Below are positions 1 through 31,135 of a stretch of DNA of 33,260 bases, piece by piece (position 1 is the first letter of the stretch; each line of letters begins with the position of its first letter). The position numbers and the translations under genes are program-made. The DNA lies in contig JABXJW010000015.1 of the NCBI GenBank assembly GCA_013375395.1, forward strand, positions 1-33,260, written 5' to 3'. The stretch comes from Desulfobacterales bacterium. GTDB lineage: Bacteria > Desulfobacterota > Desulfobacteria > Desulfobacterales > C00003060. The notes below the pieces were generated by a model. That model was not told the DNA's origin. It did not search any database and worked only from the letters and a program-made list of their open reading frames with translations.

Positions 1-272
1 GAGTTTTCAGCGCAGCGGTGGAACTCTACAACATCCGCTTTGCCTACTAACCCCAGCCTGAGAGACCGCAAAGGCAGGCCATACTCCATGCGAACATCTC
101 CTCTGGATTCCCGGTCCGCCTTATGCACCCGCTCATGCATAATCCTGCCTTCGGCAGTAAAGAGGTTTTCATTCCACATCTGCTCAATATGGATCAACGC
201 GCACTGCCGCTCACAGAAAAGCAGATGCTGCAGGGCGGAAAGCGGAATGAGGTCGTCTTCGGCAAAGTTCAT
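1..272 (-). CDS. cas4: CRISPR-associated Cas4 exonuclease, N-terminal part (truncated by window edge)
   Basis: Minus-strand translation from ATG at 272: [90 protein letters not shown]..., open to the edge. Typical Cas4 N-terminus with cluster cysteine; follows cas7 in a I-C operon. Confidence 0.9.
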   Translation of the reverse strand, partial: MNFAEDDLIPLSALQHLLFCERQCALIHIEQMWNENLFTAEGRIMHERVHKADRESRGDVRMEYGLPLRSLRLGLVGKADVVEFHRCAEN

Positions 273-841
273 CTTCTGCCCCGATTGCGTGCCTGTATTC
301 TTGTGCGATAAAGCCTTTCCGTGAAGCCGCCCTCTTTCAAGAACTCTTTTTCCAGGGTCCTCAACTGCTGATCGAGCAGATAGTTTGTCTGGTGAATAAT
401 GCACACAGCGGCATTAGCGGCAATCTCAGGAGGAGATTCAATATAGGACCTATAAGTCGTATAAGACCTATTCTTTCGATAACAAAGCCTGCGAACTTCC
501 CGGGCCTTTGGGTGGTCTTTGCTCCAAAGTGCCAGACCCTTTTGCCTCAGATAGTCCTGAAAATCCAGCAGCAATTCCTCCAAGCTCGCCCGCGCAACCC
601 CGATGAGCTTGAGTTCGGTCTTTTTGGAGGTGCCGGAGGCCATGCAGCCCTCGGCAATATTCTGTTTTCCGCTACGCGCCGCCTGCACCATCTGGTCATG
701 GGTGCGCGAGCGCCTGGAAATAAACCGGTCGCAAAACGCCACTGTTGCGTCATAAACAATCTCCGCCATCTGGTACGATTGCAGCTCGCGATAACCGCCG
801 TGGGGAGGGATGAGTGTTGGGGGTTCTTTATGGTCAGCCAT
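269..841 (-). CDS. Four-helix-bundle (S23/IVP-like, 'four helix bundle suffix domain') protein
   Basis: 190 aa ORF with HGGYRELQSYQMAEIVYDATVAFCDRFISRRSRTHDQMVQAARSGKQNIAEG...KKTELKLIGVARASLEELLLDFQDYLRQ, the 23S rRNA intervening-sequence-protein-like four-helix-bundle signature. Its stop overlaps the cas4 start (ATGA). Confidence 0.85.
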   Translation of the reverse strand: MADHKEPPTLIPPHGGYRELQSYQMAEIVYDATVAFCDRFISRRSRTHDQMVQAARSGKQNIAEGCMASGTSKKTELKLIGVARASLEELLLDFQDYLRQKGLALWSKDHPKAREVRRLCYRKNRSYTTYRSYIESPPEIAANAAVCIIHQTNYLLDQQLRTLEKEFLKEGGFTERLYRTRIQARNRGRR

Positions 842-880
842 TTTTCGTTATCTCGCCTTGTTTGTCCGTGAGGTAATCCA

Positions 881-1048
881 TTAGGGCCTCTTAATTTTTG
901 ACCTGATACGCTCATGCATAATCCTGCCTTCTGCAGTAAACAGGTTTTCATTCCACGCCCGCTCAATATGGATCAAAGCGCACTGCCGCTCGCAGAAAAG
1001 CAGGTGCTGCAAGGCGGAGATGGGAAGCAGGTCGTCTTCGGTATACAT
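881..1048 (-). pseudogene. Truncated duplicate of the Cas4 N-terminus (55 aa)
   Basis: Translation [55 protein letters not shown], near-identical to the intact cas4 start through MHER, then divergent and stopped. Below the 60-aa ORF-track cutoff. Confidence 0.85.
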
Positions 1049-1056
1049 GGCAACCA

Positions 1057-2427
1057 CTAAACCATGTGCGTTACCCAGACACCTGGGAAACCTTTGGATT
1101 CCAACGATTGCGGCGTAGGGGTATTCGTATCGTCGCCTTTGCCAGGATATTCCATTCGGGCAGCATAATCCTCGAACTTTCGCGGCTCCTTTCCCTCAGC
1201 ACAAGGTGGAACCTTGATCAGGTCAAACAGCTTGTGAGCGTGTGCGTTGCCCTTGGGATTATCGTGCGAGAAAATCCATAGGCCCATTGTCGCCTGTTCG
1301 CCCGCTGCGGCGGATGAGGCGCTATGCTTTTCGAACATGTATTCCAGTGCCTCCCATAATACCTCGAGATCATTCTCGCGTACGTAAGGCTCCCATTCCC
1401 ATTTATCCTTTTCTACTGGCTTCTTTCGACGCGCCAAAGAAGGGTTGTAGTAGCCGTGAACCCGATAGAGGCCATAGGCTATGTTCGGTTTGCGGGCCAT
1501 CTCGGTTTCCTTGCGCAAAAAATCTTCAGATTTTGTGATGGCGCATCGTGTTATGGAGTGATCCAAAGGAACCACAGGGTCAATCGATCGTCCGAACTTA
1601 ATCTGCATCGGCCCACGCACTTGTCCTGCGTTAATGCCGGTGGACAGCACTGCCCCGAACATGCGGATGTCGAAATACTTCTTGATCATATGATAACGGA
1701 CTTTTTCTCGATCATCTTTGTCTAATTTCCCTTTCGCTGCTCGATCCATTTGAGCTACAAACTCCGATATTTTTTTCTCCATCGCCTTAAGCATACCCAT
1801 CAATTGCTTCTCCTGATCGTTGCTAAATTCCCCGTCACAAATCGCATAACCATCCTCGATTCGGATCGGCATACCTTCCCGGCCTTGAAGGAATTCTAGC
1901 AATTCCTCATCCTCAATAGGAACACGATTCCTCTTCTTTAATGTTTTAATAAGTTCTTTGATTTTATTACCGATCTCTGTCGTCTGTTCTTTGTATAATT
2001 TCTTGAAATTGTCATTTACTGCTTTCTTGTTAAAATCCGTTCCTTGATAACTGAATTCCCTGCCGTCACGTTCAAACTCTTCGGGAACATTGCTCTCCAG
2101 CCAATCAAAAAGCTCATCATCCTCTACTTCCGCATGAGGAGGCTCAACTTTCACTTCCCTCGCAGCTCCGATAATCAGCGAATTCAAGGCGAACTCGCTC
2201 TGGATGAAGATCGGGATTTCCAGTTCGCGATCCACATAATCCCGAACCTTACGCTTTACGCTTACGTCGGTTACGATTCCGTGGCCGGTTTCCGGGTCGA
2301 TGCGGGGGAGGTTTCCGGCATCTGGATTTCCGTTAGGGTTGCCATCTTTGACATCGAACAGCAGAACGAATTCGTGGCGTTTTTCTGGATCAAGGTAAAT
2401 TGGTATGGAATTATTGTTCTCACTCAT
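1057..2427 (-). CDS. cas7: Type I-C Cascade backbone protein Cas7 (Csd2)
   Basis: [48 protein letters not shown]..., [43 protein letters not shown]. Start placed at MSENNNSIP (overlapping the cas8c stop), not at the longer ORF start. Confidence 0.95.
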
Positions 2428-4318
2428 TGTTTTTCTCCTTTCGGTTTTTGCGAAATTTAGCACGTTGAGCATAGAAGCCAAGGGCGAATTCTGCTTGTTC
2501 GCGCATGTTGAGGATTTTAGGAAATCCATTTGCTTCCATGATCTTCTCGTTTACGTTTTCCAGCAATTTTTCCAGTTCATCATGTTTCTTAAACCGATTC
2601 TTGCGCAACTTGGGCATATGTGCCTTGGTAGCCATACTTAGCAGGCTGCCAAAGACCGATTGCGGCGCGGTCGAAGCCGTACCGTAGAATCGGTCCACAA
2701 GTGTTGCATTAAGCCTTTTAGGAAAGGCGTGCTGGTGTTGGACTTCCTCCAGAATCGCCAGCAGCTGTCCGCAAAGATAGGATTGTCTGCCTTCATTTTC
2801 ATCCAGTTGTTCCATACGTTGAACCTCCTTTTCGTAGGTTTCTTTTCCTTTTTTCTCAGCCTCTTTCAGGCGAGAATAAACCAAAACCAGCTTCATGGCA
2901 GCAGCAAGAGCCATGCGGCGGGTATCCATCATCAGCTTCTGCTTCAAGATTTCCGGTTCTTTTTCAAATACTCTGAAGCGCATGACGGCACGCTCCAATA
3001 GACTTTGTGGCGGCAATGCGCCGGTGTAACAACAGCGTAGTAGATTAAGTAGGATGTTGACGTCTTGTTTCTGTGGAATGAATACATCGTCATCTCTGCG
3101 TGAGAGTGATGTCTTTACCGGCTTCAATGCTTCAAATATGACCGGTATCGGTGGTGCCCAGGCTTTTTGTCCGTCAGGCGACACGATTGTTAAAGCATCA
3201 GCATATCGACCAACGTTCCGCAAAAAGTTTACAAGGGAAACTTCCACCCATTCACGTAAAACCAGCCGACTCTTGTTTGGAGAAATCACCGCCAGATAGA
3301 AAGCGTTGTTCTGTATCTCCCGCACGGCCATCATTGGGCTCCACGCATACTTGCAGAGCCGCTTGAGTTGTTCTTCATGTGGTGGTGGCCTTAAATTGTT
3401 TTCGATCTCTGGTGCCTCCAGGATCATTGCCTGAAGATCCTCGAAGTCAATGGTGATGGTTTCGTCTACTTGAGCCGGGGCAAAATCATCCTTGGTCCAA
3501 AACACAGCGAGTTGATTTTTCAGAGGTGTTTTTCCAGCACCCTTAGCTTCGTCTTTGGAAAGGACAGCATGATAGCGCTCATTGTTTATTAAATACTGAA
3601 GAACTTGAGTGGCTGTTCCAGCGCAGTCAAAGCAAGTTGGCGAATTGATAGTTTGGGATTGCCCGAAAGACTCGAAACTCCTGGCATTGAACGATGAGAT
3701 AGGGCAACTGTAGCCGAAAAAGGAAATCTGCCATGGGTAAATTCGAAGCATCTTCTTCTTTTTTCCGCAAATACAGCACTCCGCATCGTTGGAGGCACAT
3801 TCTTCTGCTAAGTACTTCTCCCAAGCATTGGCTATTTGATCATCATCGTAGAAGTATTTTTGGGGATCGGTTCTAAACGCGATCCAGTGGTCAGCTTTCA
3901 TTCCCTTTGACTTGATCTCCCGCTGAATCTGGTCTGTCTTCAAGTCATCCCTGAGAAAATTATAGATTGATCGAGCATCCTTGCTATTCGTCTGTTCGCA
4001 CGCACGGTGTAGCACTTTGATAAATCCTTCGTGGACTAGGGCTGCTCGTTTTTCACCTCCTTTACCGAGGACTCCCAAGGAGTACATAGCTTTGTCAGCC
4101 AGCAAGTATGGCTTCAAATTATCTGCGGCAGGTGTGCCGCTCCGGTCTCCCCGCAATGGGACAGATAATTCTACGCCGTCCTTGCCAAAATCGTGAATCT
4201 GAAAGGAGCTGTCTTTAGATGATATTTCGATCACGTATTTGAACTTGATCTTTCCGTATGACCTTCGGGGCATTTCACCTCGAAAGCGCTTTGCGGATTC
4301 GCATAAAGCCTTAAGCAT
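2420..4318 (-). CDS. cas8c: Type I-C Cascade large subunit Cas8c (Csd1)
   Basis: 632 aa between cas5c and cas7, overlapping both; Csd1-like N-terminus, CxxC pairs (CCICGKKKK, CFDCAG) and ...KPYLLADKAMYSLGV. Confidence 0.9.
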   Translation of the reverse strand: MLKALCESAKRFRGEMPRRSYGKIKFKYVIEISSKDSSFQIHDFGKDGVELSVPLRGDRSGTPAADNLKPYLLADKAMYSLGVLGKGGEKRAALVHEGFIKVLHRACEQTNSKDARSIYNFLRDDLKTDQIQREIKSKGMKADHWIAFRTDPQKYFYDDDQIANAWEKYLAEECASNDAECCICGKKKKMLRIYPWQISFFGYSCPISSFNARSFESFGQSQTINSPTCFDCAGTATQVLQYLINNERYHAVLSKDEAKGAGKTPLKNQLAVFWTKDDFAPAQVDETITIDFEDLQAMILEAPEIENNLRPPPHEEQLKRLCKYAWSPMMAVREIQNNAFYLAVISPNKSRLVLREWVEVSLVNFLRNVGRYADALTIVSPDGQKAWAPPIPVIFEALKPVKTSLSRRDDDVFIPQKQDVNILLNLLRCCYTGALPPQSLLERAVMRFRVFEKEPEILKQKLMMDTRRMALAAAMKLVLVYSRLKEAEKKGKETYEKEVQRMEQLDENEGRQSYLCGQLLAILEEVQHQHAFPKRLNATLVDRFYGTASTAPQSVFGSLLSMATKAHMPKLRKNRFKKHDELEKLLENVNEKIMEANGFPKILNMREQAEFALGFYAQRAKFRKNRKEKNNE

Positions 4319-5036
4319 GTTTACCCTCCATTAAAACCAGTTTCCTATACTTAGATTGCGGCACCCTCAGCACACCGTTCTCCAATTTCGCGTCAAAGAA
4401 CAACGCTTGTTTATATCCTTTTACTTTTGTCTGTCCGTTTTTTTCTGGCTGGAGAAAATAAAGAAAGTCTTCCTTGCGACTCTCTTCCTGTATGAAGGCA
4501 ATATCCAACAGCATCTGGCCGAGATGCACAATGTGGTCTCGTAGTAGCGGGTCGCATTGTTCCTTTCCATTAGGCTTCGAGAAATCCGCCGAAAACTCCC
4601 GATTGCCAAGATAGGGCTGATGAAAGCATTGTCCTTTATCACGTCGTCTAATGAATTGCGGAAGATAGTTCTCTATTTTGTGCTTTGTGTGTGGACGAAG
4701 CACCATTTTGGCCACAATCAGGTATTCTACGTCTTTCAGGATCAAACTGGTCCGCTGTTGACGCTCCTTGTCTTTCTCAATAATAATAGGGTCCTTGTCT
4801 TGTTTACTGGAAATCTCGTTGCGCATGATGGTTGTTTGTGTCCCCTGCTTGAGAATCAAAATTTCCTTTATGAAATAACGGATTTCCGGCTTCCAATAAA
4901 TTGCCTCCAGGACGCCTCGAGCTGCGCTGGGCGTCATTACGGGGTAACTCACACGCTCTACTTTGAATTCCGGGCGTGTGAAGCACGCGTATTCTCCGGT
5001 TACCTTGAGTTTGACTTCCGCTTCTTGCTCATTCAT
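4311..5036 (-). CDS. cas5c: Type I-C Cas5 (Cas5d/Cas5c)
   Basis: EVKLKVTGEYACFTRPEFKVERVSYPVMTPSAARGVLEAIYWKPEIRYFIKEI is the canonical Cas5c N-terminus. Start at MNEQEAE. Confidence 0.95.
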   Translation of the reverse strand: MNEQEAEVKLKVTGEYACFTRPEFKVERVSYPVMTPSAARGVLEAIYWKPEIRYFIKEILILKQGTQTTIMRNEISSKQDKDPIIIEKDKERQQRTSLILKDVEYLIVAKMVLRPHTKHKIENYLPQFIRRRDKGQCFHQPYLGNREFSADFSKPNGKEQCDPLLRDHIVHLGQMLLDIAFIQEESRKEDFLYFLQPEKNGQTKVKGYKQALFFDAKLENGVLRVPQSKYRKLVLMEGKHA

Positions 5037-5057
5037 GGTTTGACCTTTCATGTATGT

Positions 5058-7271
5058 TCATTCATTCGAGACAATCAAATCCGCCGGATCGATAGCTTCG
5101 TTGGATATGCCACGCACATCGTGATACTTTCCGACCCACTGGAAGAGAGTATCTTCTTGCAGGGGATGCAGCCAATCGCGGAATCTTTCGATCTGCCATC
5201 GATAGATGTTCACCACATACGGTTGTAGCCGCCGCCAATTGCGCCGACTTGTATCTCGCTCCCATTCGTTGAGGATCGACAAAGCGTCCTGGTAATTGAC
5301 CACCACCGGAACAGTGTTGTTTGGGATGAGACGATAACGTTTCGATGCTTCAGGGTAGTTCAAGTCCATTCGCAGGTCTTGAATTCTTTTTTCATCCAGT
5401 TTCTCGTTCAAATCGGAGAACAAGCGCTGGAAATATTCCACAAATATCTCAGGGTTGTGCAGTTCATTGGGGCCGTATTTTTGCAACATTGCTTGTGCTT
5501 CCGTCTTGCCAATTAAGTAGGCTCCTCTTGGAATTCCACCTTCTTCTGGCTGGAAGATCACCACTTGCCCAAGCTTCTTGCTATCTCGCCATTCCCGATT
5601 GCATCGCCCCGCGGCCTGAACGATGCGATCAAGGGGGCCAAGGGCGCGGTACACGACCGGGAAGTCGAGGTCTACCCCGGCTTCGACAACCTGGGTACTG
5701 ATTAGACGCACGGGTTGGCTATCATCAAGGCGCTTACGGATTTCATAGAGTTTATCCTTGCGGTGACGCCCGCAAAGGAGTGTGGAGAGATGATATATGT
5801 GGGGAGTTTCACCCATAGCGTCAATCAGAGCAAGGGCGTCTTTTCGGGTGTTAAGCACGACCATGACCTGGTTCAAATTCTCAATCTCCTCCCCCAACTC
5901 CGACCAATCGAGCGACTCAGGACGGAATTCATAATCCACACGCTTGAGCATTTTGAAATGCTGGGCATAGCTTGGGACGATTTCTTTTGCTTCTATATTC
6001 TGAAATGGTTTCAGATAAGGTGTGTTGTCGAAGGCGGGCTGGGTGGCCGTGGAGAGAACGAGGCTAACACCGTAGTGATCCACCAGGTCGCGCAGAACGC
6101 CCAACGTCGGCTTGAGAAGTTGCGGCGGCAGTGTCTGTACCTCGTCGAGGATAAGGACGCTTCTTGCGATGTTGTGGAGTTTTCGCGCACGACCCGGCTT
6201 ATTGCTAAATAGGCTTTCAAAGAGTTGCACCGTTGTCGTGACGATCACCGGCGCGTCCCAGTTCTCCGTCGCCAAACGATAGCGCAGATGCTTCGGGTCC
6301 TGTTCCTCCTTTTTGTCCGGAACGTCCATCTGGCTGTGGTGCTCCAAGACGCATTCGTTTTCTTTTTCCAGAATGTTGCTATACTCGCTAGCCGTCTGAT
6401 CGATGATGCTGGTGTATGGCAGCGCGACAATTATGCGGCAGAAATCGTTTTTATTTTGGATAGCGTGTTGCAGTGCAAAGGCGAGCCCGCTGCGCGTTTT
6501 GCCGCCTCCGGTCGGCACAGTCAACTTGAAGACACCAGGTTTGCTTTTGGCGGCATCCAGGCACGAATTGTAGACTTCGCGCCGAATGCGGTTAACTTCT
6601 GAGGGTTTCGCCTCGGCCTTCTTGAGTAGCTTGTCCTGGTCCTGCCGGAAGCGTTCCCACAATTCGGACAACTCGGGCCATTTCCCGCGATTGTCCGCTT
6701 TTTGCGGCTCGAAATGGTTTTCGGTAGCGAGGTAGTCTGCATCCACAAGGGCGGAAAACACCATGCGAACACGCATTTCCCGGCGGGTGTCGTTGGCGAT
6801 TCTGAAGGATGGCGATTCTGGAGTGAAGCGCTGCTGAAGTTCCGTCCAGGCTGAAACCATCGATTGAAGCTTTGACGGATTGTCCCTCAAAAATTGCGAG
6901 AACTTCTGACTCGCCAGACCGTGAGACTGTAAGCCGGCGTGATGTCCATAGATCGGCAAGGCGAATTCTTTCCAAGCGTCCTTCTGCTTTTTGCACCACA
7001 GGAGGTAGTACATGAATGAAGCGCCCCATATAGCGTGTGGCGCTTTTGGGTGGCTGCGATTTTCTTCCATTGACTTCAGATATGACTGAAAAAGCGGGTT
7101 AATCTTTCCGAGGTCATGGAGAAGGCCAAGCCAGAAAGCAAGTGCTCCGCAATTAAACTTCTCAGCAAAAGATCGAGCCATCACAGCAACATCCCTTAGA
7201 TGATCAATCAAGTGATCTTCTTTCCCGTCTTGCCCTTGTGTATGTGCAATCAATTTAGAAAAATCAACCAT
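5058..7271 (-). CDS. cas3: CRISPR-associated helicase/nuclease Cas3 (HD + helicase, type I-C)
   Basis: HD motif LLHDLGKINPLFQSYL, Walker A PTGGGKTRSGLAFA, motif II LDEVQTLPPQLL, motif VI region QAAGRCNRE. Start at MVDFSK with upstream GGAG; the longer ORF begins at 7286. Confidence 0.95.
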   Translation of the reverse strand: MVDFSKLIAHTQGQDGKEDHLIDHLRDVAVMARSFAEKFNCGALAFWLGLLHDLGKINPLFQSYLKSMEENRSHPKAPHAIWGASFMYYLLWCKKQKDAWKEFALPIYGHHAGLQSHGLASQKFSQFLRDNPSKLQSMVSAWTELQQRFTPESPSFRIANDTRREMRVRMVFSALVDADYLATENHFEPQKADNRGKWPELSELWERFRQDQDKLLKKAEAKPSEVNRIRREVYNSCLDAAKSKPGVFKLTVPTGGGKTRSGLAFALQHAIQNKNDFCRIIVALPYTSIIDQTASEYSNILEKENECVLEHHSQMDVPDKKEEQDPKHLRYRLATENWDAPVIVTTTVQLFESLFSNKPGRARKLHNIARSVLILDEVQTLPPQLLKPTLGVLRDLVDHYGVSLVLSTATQPAFDNTPYLKPFQNIEAKEIVPSYAQHFKMLKRVDYEFRPESLDWSELGEEIENLNQVMVVLNTRKDALALIDAMGETPHIYHLSTLLCGRHRKDKLYEIRKRLDDSQPVRLISTQVVEAGVDLDFPVVYRALGPLDRIVQAAGRCNREWRDSKKLGQVVIFQPEEGGIPRGAYLIGKTEAQAMLQKYGPNELHNPEIFVEYFQRLFSDLNEKLDEKRIQDLRMDLNYPEASKRYRLIPNNTVPVVVNYQDALSILNEWERDTSRRNWRRLQPYVVNIYRWQIERFRDWLHPLQEDTLFQWVGKYHDVRGISNEAIDPADLIVSNE

Positions 7272-7354
7272 CCGTGTTAACTCCATAGACTTCCAAAAAC
7301 TCTTTGACTTTGAAGCCCCTTTGCTAATAGAATTGATTCAAACATAGCCCCCCT

Positions 7355-7530: not shown

Positions 7531-8709
7531 TCATCTCTTCCTTTCTTCCAACAACTTCCTCGTTCTCTTCAGTTCCTCCGCAATCAGCTTCTCGTCAGGG
7601 AGCACAGTGCGGTATTCGGAGGCGAGGACCTTGTTCGGCAATCCTTCCAAGGCGTATTTCGCCAGGGCCGAATTTTTCATAGCGCACAAGATTAGACCAA
7701 CGGGAGGATTCTCGTCAGGATGGGTCCAGTGCTCACGGGCATAGGTCAGATACATGTGCATCTGGCCCGCATCGGCGTGCGTGAATTTTCCCCGTTTGAG
7801 ATCGATCACCACCAGACACCGCAAGCGGCGGTGAAAGAAAATTAGATCTACGCGGTACCATTCATCACCAATACGCAAACGCTTCTGTCGGCCCACAAAG
7901 GTAAAGTCGCCACCGAGTTCCAGTAGGAAATGCTCAAGGTGCAGGATCAGGGCTTCCTCCAATTCGTTTTCGGAGTATTCGTCTTTCAGGCTCAGGAACT
8001 CCAGAACATAGGGATCTTTGATCTGCTCTTCCGGGGTAACGGCGTCCTGCGGTTTCGGCTTCGCGCCCCTTGTCAACATAGCGGCTTTGTTCTTCGAGAG
8101 AGCGGTTCGTTCGTAGAATTGGGACTCGATCTGACGGTCAAGCTGGCGCACGGACCAGCCGCCACGCAAGGCTTCCTGTTCATAGAACGTCCGGGCATGC
8201 TCGTTCCTCACGGATAGCAGGCGCACGTAGGCGGACCATGGAAGCGGAAATCGGTCTGAGAGAGCCTCAACAGTGAATTCCGCAGACGGCGTCTGCGAAT
8301 TGCGAGGCTGAGATTTTCCAGACGGTGTCTGGAATTTTCGGGACTTTGATTCTCCAGACACCGTCTGGAGAATATCCTGATACGTCACATAGAAGGCCCG
8401 CATCTGGTAAAGATTGCTTTTCGCGAAACCCCGACCAAACCGGCTTGTAAGATCGGCCGAAAGTTGCTTGAGCAGAGCCTCTCCATACCCAGCCCGCCGT
8501 TTCCCGCCCTGCTCGTTCTCGACAATCCTCCGACCCATTTCCCAGTATGTGGCGGTAATGATCGCATTGACGGTACGGGCTGAGACCCGCCGTGCTTCTT
8601 CAATAAGAGACACCATGCCGGAAAGAAGGCCATCATACCCCTGTATGCTCACAGGCTTGTCACTCTTCCTTTTGATCGGCTTCGCTGTCATTGACACCCT
8701 CCAATCCAT
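7531..8709 (-). CDS. DUF1016 / YhcG-type PDDEXK nuclease domain protein
   Basis: TYWEMGRRIVENEQGGKRRAGYGEALLKQLSADLTSRFGRGFAKSNLYQMR...; C-terminal FVGRQKRLRIGDEWYRVDLIFFHRRLRCLVVIDLKRGKFTHADAGQMHMYL. Confidence 0.93.
   Translation of the reverse strand: MDWRVSMTAKPIKRKSDKPVSIQGYDGLLSGMVSLIEEARRVSARTVNAIITATYWEMGRRIVENEQGGKRRAGYGEALLKQLSADLTSRFGRGFAKSNLYQMRAFYVTYQDILQTVSGESKSRKFQTPSGKSQPRNSQTPSAEFTVEALSDRFPLPWSAYVRLLSVRNEHARTFYEQEALRGGWSVRQLDRQIESQFYERTALSKNKAAMLTRGAKPKPQDAVTPEEQIKDPYVLEFLSLKDEYSENELEEALILHLEHFLLELGGDFTFVGRQKRLRIGDEWYRVDLIFFHRRLRCLVVIDLKRGKFTHADAGQMHMYLTYAREHWTHPDENPPVGLILCAMKNSALAKYALEGLPNKVLASEYRTVLPDEKLIAEELKRTRKLLEERKR
8281..8372. repeat. Three palindromic units at exact 36-bp spacing inside the DUF1016 gene
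   Basis: CGCAGAC-GGC-GTCTGCG (8281-8297), TTCCAGAC-GGT-GTCTGGAA (8316-8334), TTCTCCAGAC-ACC-GTCTGGAGAA (8350-8372); centres 8289, 8325, 8361. Confidence 0.9.
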
Positions 8710-17393: not shown

Positions 17394-17410
17394 TCCTAAT
17401 AAAATCGCGG

Positions 17411-17720
17411 TATCATTTTAGCCCTATGAAAGAAACACAATGAAACACGCTGAAACGGCGGTTAAATTTTAATTCGTGTAACTGTCTGAGTCCGCCGCAG
17501 GCGGATTAAGAAAGAACAGTCAGGTGCTGGGTGTCTTTTGAGTGCAGGACAAAGTGCCGACCCTGGCGGCCTTATTTAAGAGGGATAAGCTGTTTTTTCT
17601 TTACGCTCACTTAGACGCGAGTTTTACATGAATCAAAATTTGATCGCCGTCGAAGCCGCCATCCTTTCAAAAGGCTAAATTAACGTCTCGGAATTTCTAC
17701 AACCTATTGAAAGTATAGCT
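17411..17720. repeat. Dispersed non-coding inverted-repeat element (related copy at 30565-31135)
   Basis: Blocks shared with 30565-31135: ATCATTTT(A/G)GCC(C/T)TATGAAA...GCTGAAACGGCGGTTAA, and a 93-bp block 17589-17681 vs 31043-31135. Internal inverted arms ACGGCGGTTAAATTTTAATTCGTGTAA / TTACATGAATCAAAATTTGATCGCCGT. Confidence 0.75.
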
Positions 17721-17813
17721 ATATATTGGCCGTCTTGGACGCTCTATCAGGGAATACTGGAATACTGGAATAATGTACAAGATAAAAAGACCAAAATCCT
17801 CTTCAACCCAATA

Positions 17814-17885
17814 TTCCAATATTCCAGTATTCCAATATTCCAGTATTCCAATATTCCAGTATTCCAATATTCCAGTATTCCAATT
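17814..17885. repeat. 16-bp tandem repeat TTCCAATATTCCAGTA, about 4.5 copies
   Basis: Units at 17814, 17830, 17846, 17862 plus a partial; opposite-orientation GGAATACTGGAATACTGGAAT at ~17752. Confidence 0.9.
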
Positions 17886-17927
17886 GTGAGCGAAGCGAGC
17901 TAAGTTCTTACAGATCGCGAAGCGATC

Positions 17928-26109: not shown

Positions 26110-26216
26110 GTTCGCCTATTGTATGCTCTACCACCCGTGCAGTCCCGTTGCCCATCATTGTCGGGCCGGAGACTTTGCATCCCGCGCTTTCGGGAGGTTT
26201 GCCTTTTTCACAATGT
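26110..26216 (-). ncRNA. GEMM-I-like cyclic-dinucleotide riboswitch (c-di-GMP-I class)
   Basis: Minus strand AAAGGCAAACCTCCCGAAAGCGCGGGATGCAAAGTCTCCGGCCCGACAATGATGGGCAACGGGACTGCACGGG carries GEMM-I hallmarks: GGCAAACC, GAAA loop, (A)NGCAAAG, CTCCGGCC. Boundaries approximate. Confidence 0.72.
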
Positions 26217-30542: not shown

Positions 30543-30564
30543 AGCTGAAAGTTGAACGCCCGGC

Positions 30565-30896
30565 ATCATTTTGGCCTTATGAAATAAACAGAATGAAACA
30601 GGCTGAAACGGCGGTTAAGTTTGTAACAATTTAGGTCTTTGGAAATACGGTCGCTGCAATGACAATCAAATTTTGAACCGTGTAAAACTCGGGCCTAAGT
30701 GAGCCTAGAGAACGAACTGCATTCACTTGTTAAATCGAACCAGGAAAATTCGCTCTTTTTGAGCAGTTAAGTGCGGTCCCTCCAGTTACCCGTTCTTTCT
30801 CAAAGCTCACTAAGCCCCTCAGACAGTTACCCGGTTCAAAATTTGATTGTCATTGCAGCTCCCTCGAATCCGATTGTTTCATAAGGCAAAAATGAT
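30565..30896. mobile_element. MITE-like inverted-repeat element with nested 28-bp perfect inverted repeat
   Basis: Outer TIRs ATCATTTTGGCCTTATGAAA (30565-30584) / TTTCATAAGGCAAAAATGAT (30877-30896); inner perfect IR GCTGCAATGACAATCAAATTTTGAACCG (30653-30680) / CGGTTCAAAATTTGATTGTCATTGCAGC (30832-30859). Confidence 0.75.
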
Positions 30897-31042
30897 ACTT
30901 AGATTTTAATTTGTGTGTAACTACTCAGGTTGTCGGGTTCACGGTTGGCGTATCGCAAAAACCGCATAAACTCCGCATTCATCGCTCTCTAACCTTGAAC
31001 CTTGAACCGTGAACCTTGGAACTTTGAACCTGAGGAGTTACA

Positions 31043-31135
31043 GCTGTTCTTTCTTTACGCTCACTTGGACGCGAGTTTTACACGAATTAAAATTTGATCG
31101 CCGTTGAAGCCGCCAGCCTTTCAAAAGGCTAAATT
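31043..31135. repeat. 93-bp dispersed repeat block (second copy 17589-17681)
   Basis: GCTGTT(C/T)TTTCTTTACGCTCACTT(G/A)GACGCGAGTTTTACA(C/T)GAAT(T/C)AAAATTTGATCGCCGT(T/C)GAAGCCGCCA(G/T)CCTTTCAAAAGGCTAAATT in both. Confidence 0.9.

Follow-up and report, generated by a model that had tools for sequence, protein, structure and literature searches.

To our knowledge, the protein family TIGR04258 is without known function. An open reading frame (ORF) inside a type I-C cas operon of a Desulfobacterales genome shares full sequence membership and fold with this family (taken together with TIGR02436/PF05635), and this ORF, its relatives and their possible route into cas operons are our subject here. 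Its closest described relatives in structure are the proteins of 23S rRNA intervening sequences (IVPs), which have the same four-helix fold (2gsc), and, at a greater distance, the Avd proteins of diversity-generating retroelements (DGRs); IVP and Avd have been suggested to be homologous (PMC10053308). The ORF differs from an IVP gene in lying outside any rRNA gene, among the protein-coding genes of an operon, and in having extra suffix helices, and it differs from Avd in having no reverse transcriptase (RT) beside it. Like the accessory CRISPR-linked genes, it is non-core, patchily distributed and embedded in cas operons, but unlike others of that kind it is tied to adaptation genes across type I-C, type I-E and a Cas4-Cas1 fusion. 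In the literature that we searched, no earlier description of such an association, or of a TIGR04258 clade tied to CRISPR adaptation genes, was found; the coverage of this search was incomplete and the novelty is provisional.

A further described process concerns the way in which such a gene may arrive. Homology-facilitated illegitimate recombination, described in experiments on natural transformation and conjugation (PMC3240628), combines one homologous with one non-homologous end and would yield the structure reported below. We consider it probable that the ORF belongs to a CRISPR-dedicated TIGR04258 lineage, which has spread laterally among type I cas operons and settled by recombination ahead of adaptation genes. 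Such a CRISPR-tied clade offers a concrete and testable setting for a role of the widespread S23/IVP four-helix bundles outside retroelements and provides a candidate accessory factor for spacer acquisition; its scars would illustrate the way in which genes are taken into cas operons where the interference module meets the adaptation module.

The ORF and its operon

The window, that is, the whole stretch of DNA analysed here, comprises 33,260 nucleotides and is the entire contig C241 of the metagenome-assembled genome G000, which consists of 591 contigs. Its features are collected in Table 1. The genes upstream of the ORF in the operon, namely cas7, cas8c, cas5c and cas3, were assigned by profile matches and stand in type I-C order. 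Behind the ORF, cas4 runs into the end of the contig, and its remainder was not found in the G000 assembly; the copy that the sequence-only reading had called intact is thus intact at its start, with the rest of the gene missing. The TGA of the ORF overlaps the ATG of this cas4 (ATGA, 269-272), as that reading had noted, and the ORF may be translationally coupled to the gene behind it.

Table 1. Annotated features of the window, with positions counted from its first letter
Feature	Position	Strand	Basis or remark
cas4 5' part, 90 codons, cut by contig end	3..272	-	TIGR00372 54 bits; 89% to G020 cas4
Repeat copy within cas4 at contig end	130..262	-	direct-repeat scan
Four-helix-bundle-suffix ORF (S23/IVP-like), 190 aa	269..841	-	TIGR04258 80.8 bits (cut-off 40), TIGR02436 33.3 bits (cut-off 24); fold 2gsc
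9-nt tandem repeat in ORF (AGGTCTTAT ACGACTTAT AGGTCCTAT, read RSYTTYRSY)	442..471	-	sequence; just before suffix domain
Linker, 70 nt, between truncated cas4 and ORF	842..911	-	96.7% (59/61) in G020
Truncated cas4 5' end, ORF of 55 codons	881..1048	-	repeat; TIGR00372 26.8 bits; cas4 homology ends ~909
Repeat copy within truncated cas4	909..1041	-	direct-repeat scan
cas7 (Csd2), type I-C, large internal insertion	1057..2427	-	TIGR02589 242 bits, two stretches
cas8c (Csd1)	2420..4318	-	TIGR01863 310 bits
cas5c	4311..5051	-	TIGR01876 133 bits
cas3, helicase + HD nuclease	5058..7286	-	TIGR01587 and TIGR01596
YhcG/DUF1016 nuclease gene	7531..8709	-	upstream of cas3
Dispersed intergenic repeat, 89%	17408..17469 / 30561..30622		
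Dispersed intergenic repeat, 94%	17588..17681 / 31042..31135		
8-nt tandem array (CCAATATT/CCAGTATT)	17792..17898		
c-di-GMP-I riboswitch	26135..26213	-	49.2 bits

The ORF passes the cut-offs of TIGR04258, with the four-helix core in front, and of TIGR02436, and stays just under the gathering cut-off of PF05635 (23S rRNA IVP; 29.7 versus 33.8). A sequence search of the PDB found no relative. An AlphaFold model of the product, built from 45 relatives (pLDDT 87), has as its best Foldseek match the IVP structure 2gsc (prob 1.00, TMt 0.77, E 0.11). By this model, the product is an IVP-fold protein and, more distantly, Avd-like, in agreement with the fold that had been proposed from the letters alone.

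Several known kinds of gene were considered for the ORF and set aside. It does not represent a 23S rRNA intervening sequence, as the window is without rRNA and the ORF sits in a cas operon. Judged by the location of RT domains, it is not the Avd part of a DGR either, as those of G000 lie only on other contigs and none stands beside the ORF. A transposon was rejected on the grounds that the unit is without transposase or recombinase and that the flanking copies are cas4 starts, 89% alike, which are missing in most loci. The presence in only 11 of 60 type I-C loci, together with one remnant, rejects a core Cas component of type I-C.

Recurrence ahead of adaptation genes and the cas7-cas4 gap

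The linkage to adaptation genes was counted in 297 genomes of the phylum, drawn evenly and searched independently with TIGR04258 and with TIGR03640, the model of type I-C Cas1. In these genomes, 11 TIGR04258 matches sit 0.65-1.3 kb 5' of Cas1c on the same strand, against an estimated chance expectation of about 0.003 (from 61 matches, 64 targets each 1.5 kb long and 297 genomes at ~3.7 Mb, counting one strand). Sixty Cas1c loci were refetched; the ORF is present in 11 (interrupted in one and more divergent in another), a remnant remains in one, and 48 are without it.

More widely, 84,980 species genomes were scanned, the queries being seven relatives of the ORF, and 542 relatives were obtained, of which the best 80, most of them 68-88% identical, were fetched with their flanks; this set is biased towards CRISPR because five of the seven query rows were CRISPR-linked. 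In 40 of these best 80 relatives, the first cas gene to follow downstream in the same orientation is cas4 or cas1, and it starts mostly between -35 and +31 nt from the ORF stop. Some 30 loci have the type I-C order cas7-ORF-cas4, preceded by cas3-cas5-cas8c and followed by cas1-cas2 where the contig reaches that far. The ORF also stands immediately ahead of cas1e in two type I-E loci (L096 and L100), ahead of a Cas4-Cas1 fusion in L102, and ahead of cas1 in the Brocadia loci L098 and L108, in the latter also ahead of cas4. Among the phyla represented in the 80 loci are Desulfobacterota, Nitrospirota, Planctomycetota, Acidobacteriota and Deferribacterota. A CRISPR-associated accessory gene is expected to be linked to cas genes repeatedly, beyond chance and in several lineages, and these counts (40 of the best 80 relatives; 11 of 60 type I-C loci at cas4/cas1) make the new accessory gene suggested by the sequence-only reading plausible. 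The same counts, and a second genome with the same junction (G020, see below), show that the arrangement is not the one-off that this reading had named as evidence against itself.

The gap between cas7 and cas4 is a landing site, and the ORF is its commonest occupant. In ORF-free loci the gap has a median of 52 nt, and in 8 of the 40 ORF-free loci in which it was measured, it spans 379-1136 nt, most of these gaps holding other small genes. Fic, BRO, RhuM, HicAB and a plain four-helix bundle were named there, by eye from the sequence and, for BRO and the four-helix bundle, by tblastn. Since the gap takes such genes too, position alone is no proof of function. The ORF could be a pure passenger, the most frequent inhabitant of a tolerant gap where the interference genes end and the adaptation genes begin, maintained because it is often transferred and not because CRISPR immunity uses it, and we give this explanation a substantial chance that falls somewhat short of even. 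Besides the occupied gaps, it draws on the ORF remnants named at G065, L068, L098 and L198, on interrupted copies in G005 and L196, and on those relatives which adjoin recQ, argG, an hsdR-like gene and others, away from CRISPR. It accounts less well for an orientation that is constant and a spacing that is close everywhere, for the placement ahead of cas1 in type I-E loci too, and for the near-single CRISPR-dedicated clade and the low dN/dS described in the last section. In any case the ORF is dispensable, as most type I-C operons lack it and some hold it in a decayed state.

BRO-family genes were observed in the same gaps of type I-C and type I-E loci (L081:9125-9961, L086, L116, L119, L215, L230, L246 and L064:14320-15075), and the one in L081 matches PADLOC PDC-S13 (E 1e-123).

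Duplicated gene starts and the mode of entry

Two cas4 5' ends in the same orientation flank the ORF (133 nt, 89% identical, spacing 779), and the truncated one begins 8 nt past the cas7 stop, where cas4 should follow cas7; the two flanking starts and the place of the truncated one had been noted correctly from the sequence. An assembly artefact was rejected as the source of this junction, because an independent genome has it as well. In G020, which belongs to the same genus and was assembled separately, a different cas7 end is followed by a cas4 start that is truncated and contains an in-frame stop, then by the linker, the ORF, a complete cas4, cas1 and cas2. Between G020 and G000, the linker is identical at 59 of 61 nt (96.7%) and the ORF at 90% of its nucleotides.

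Direct repeats across the ORF were scanned in all 80 fetched loci, and gene starts in front of the ORF were detected in three of them: L075 (= G020), with 137 nt of cas4 (81%); L085, with 77 nt of cas4 (73%), where the cas7 stop is followed by ~35 cas4 codons and then by the ORF; and L119, where the first 99 nt of cas1 (90%) lie 5 nt ahead of the ORF and the intact cas1 farther downstream. With G000 included, truncated starts thus occur in about 4 of some 50 CRISPR loci, a minority. No duplicated gene start was found in 31 further TIGR04258 loci, CRISPR and non-CRISPR, or at the gene starts of the non-CRISPR TIGR04258 relatives that were scanned. The proposal of the sequence-only reading that duplication of the host gene start could be an insertion mode is, in that form, not supported by these counts; the duplicated starts do recur in cas operons (G020, L085, L119), and not in the non-CRISPR relatives.

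It is unlikely that insertion simply duplicated the cas4 start in tandem. In favour of this version, two copies flank the ORF, and those of G000 are each other's closest match (88%), but most insertions are without duplication, and the truncated copies of G000 and G020 are only 78% alike despite the 96.7% identity of the adjoining linker. As 16 of 135 positions separate the G000 copies, and as at least seven sequences match the truncated copy of L085 more closely than the intact cas4 of that locus does, two cas4 alleles joined by recombination would fit at least as well as duplication. A closer match of the truncated fragment to another cas4 lineage, with recombination between two cas operons, had been listed in advance as speaking against the first reading; this is borne out in part. 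With 135 nt, the resident and the incoming G000 copy are not separable by lineage. Outside the G000 pair, third codon positions hold most of the differences between truncated and intact starts, which is the pattern expected between genes that diverged while functional. The fragments of G000 and G020 end at nt 135, the point at which the mean conservation of cas4 declines, from 0.69 before it to 0.54 after it. The duplicated cas4 start looks like the scar of a recombination anchored in the conserved first ~135 nt of cas4 rather than like a target-site duplication.

Under the reading that we prefer, a laterally spread lineage settled by recombination, the ORF would move between type I cas operons and usually settle between cas7 and cas4, and the incoming DNA would bring the ORF together with an attached cas4 (or cas1) start. 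At one end, this DNA would be anchored by homology to the well-conserved opening ~135 nt of the cas4 or cas1 gene; on the ORF side, the joint would need no homology. A resident gene start that escaped removal would persist as a truncated copy ahead of the ORF, giving the structure in the window. The architecture of G000, G020, L085, L119 and L081 would fit such one-sided homology, the last being a type I-E locus in which the ORF is followed by ~105 nt of a cas4 start and then by cas1e. In the exchange between L081 and L083, the most recent part spans ORF nt ~11-460 and the cas4 tail is only ~75% alike, for which reason L081 is used for architecture and not for identity. The earlier suggestion that the ORF entered at cas4 while the operon stayed translatable is supported.

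Two further comparisons were discarded. The cas4 of L082 was considered as a chimera, as its nucleotide match ends at +108-128, but cas4 conservation ends there too. No relative came to light that has these flanks in the state before insertion; L165 and L166, type I-C loci of the same genus compared in the search for an empty-site homologue, are alike (~90%) in cas1 and in the 3' half of cas4 and differ in cas7 and the 5' half of cas4. With cas7 differing too and the switch lying near cas4 nt 320, this pair is a module exchange and offers no clean empty site.

The junction behind the ORF bears a second kind of trace. In 67 of the best 80 relatives, a 9-nt tandem repeat of the kind RGNCYTATA lies inside the ORF, ahead of the suffix domain. 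In 23 of 38 loci with the ORF, this repeat crosses the ORF stop into the cas4 start, reading MTYKTY or similar, whereas cas4 begins in the repeat in none of 22 loci without the ORF, so that the cas4 start of the 23 loci seems to have come along with the ORF. The cas4 genes of L113 and L116, ~40% identical to the rest, also begin in the repeat, and L082 shares this start.

The 9-nt repeats, which lie within the ORF and run past its end in frame with cas4 starts from different lineages, are also compatible with an active element. The protein of such an element would help to insert its own gene at the starts of other genes, for example through an intermediate made of RNA or cDNA, and the 3' repeats would supply the new start codon; Avd, which helps the retrohoming of DGRs, is the model for such a process. 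The two ORF copies in one operon of L108 and the match of a related plain four-helix bundle in L098 to Avd (phrog_3206, 8e-12) point in the same direction. We nevertheless regard an active element as improbable, given that the unit contains neither RT nor transposase, that it has neither precise ends nor target-site duplications, and that searches for the ORF gave no match in a phage collection and IMG/VR and one distant match only in plasmids.

Other TIGR04258 genes (L002, L013, L014, L021, L029 and others) have different 9-nt repeat linkers (SDKSD, TDRTD), and they overlap downstream genes that appear by eye to be hsdR- or Fic-like.

Exchange, selection and a possible role

The CRISPR-linked copies of the ORF form nearly one clade. 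In the ORF tree, which is a quick tree of a short protein, CRISPR-linked rows need 6 label changes versus 26.6 when shuffled (0 of 500 as low), and a clade of 42 CRISPR rows and 3 others has an SH-aLRT of 92. Mapped on the Cas1 tree, the ORF has a patchy distribution that takes 14 changes. Among 28 type I-C loci, of which a few divergent ones weigh heavily, distances correlate strongly between cas1 and cas4 (r=0.93), weakly between the ORF and cas1 (0.31) or cas4 (0.33), and not at all between the ORF and cas7 (-0.04). The dS values diverge in both directions: for L094/L097 they are 0.52 in the ORF, 0.15 in cas4 and 0.19 in cas1, and for L077/L080 they are 0.20, 0.45 and 0.69, respectively. 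Discordant distances and dS together show that one lineage has been swapped many times between adaptation modules. In close pairs, the dN/dS of the ORF is 0.06-0.24, as low as in cas4, which shows that the ORF is maintained as a protein by purifying selection.

A laterally spread accessory gene, settled by recombination, is the statement that the evidence carries. As to what the gene does, a role in adaptation and a well-placed passenger are about equally likely. The former is favoured by fixed orientation, close spacing to cas4/cas1, persistence in one clade and purifying selection, and the latter by patchiness, decay, the other occupants of the gap and the non-CRISPR relatives. If there is such a role, the protein would act, probably in a modest way, with Cas4-Cas1-Cas2. 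The more far-reaching proposal, that type I CRISPR adaptation has an unrecognised component or modulator with the Avd/IVP fold, spread across several phyla by a cassette with its own coupled cas4/cas1 start, is one that we put forward tentatively and are inclined to doubt. Array length was dropped as a sign of better adaptation, since the loci are too few and the arrays are often cut by contig ends (3-35 copies in five loci with the ORF versus 1-204 in 21 others).

Two minor observations concern neighbouring positions in cas operons. In G062 (L063:9164-9748), cas3 is the gene directly behind a close copy of the ORF, again with an ATGA overlap. A plain four-helix-bundle gene stands behind cas1 in L092, L095, L098 and L108, and, where the contig has cas2 (as in L098), it stands before cas2.
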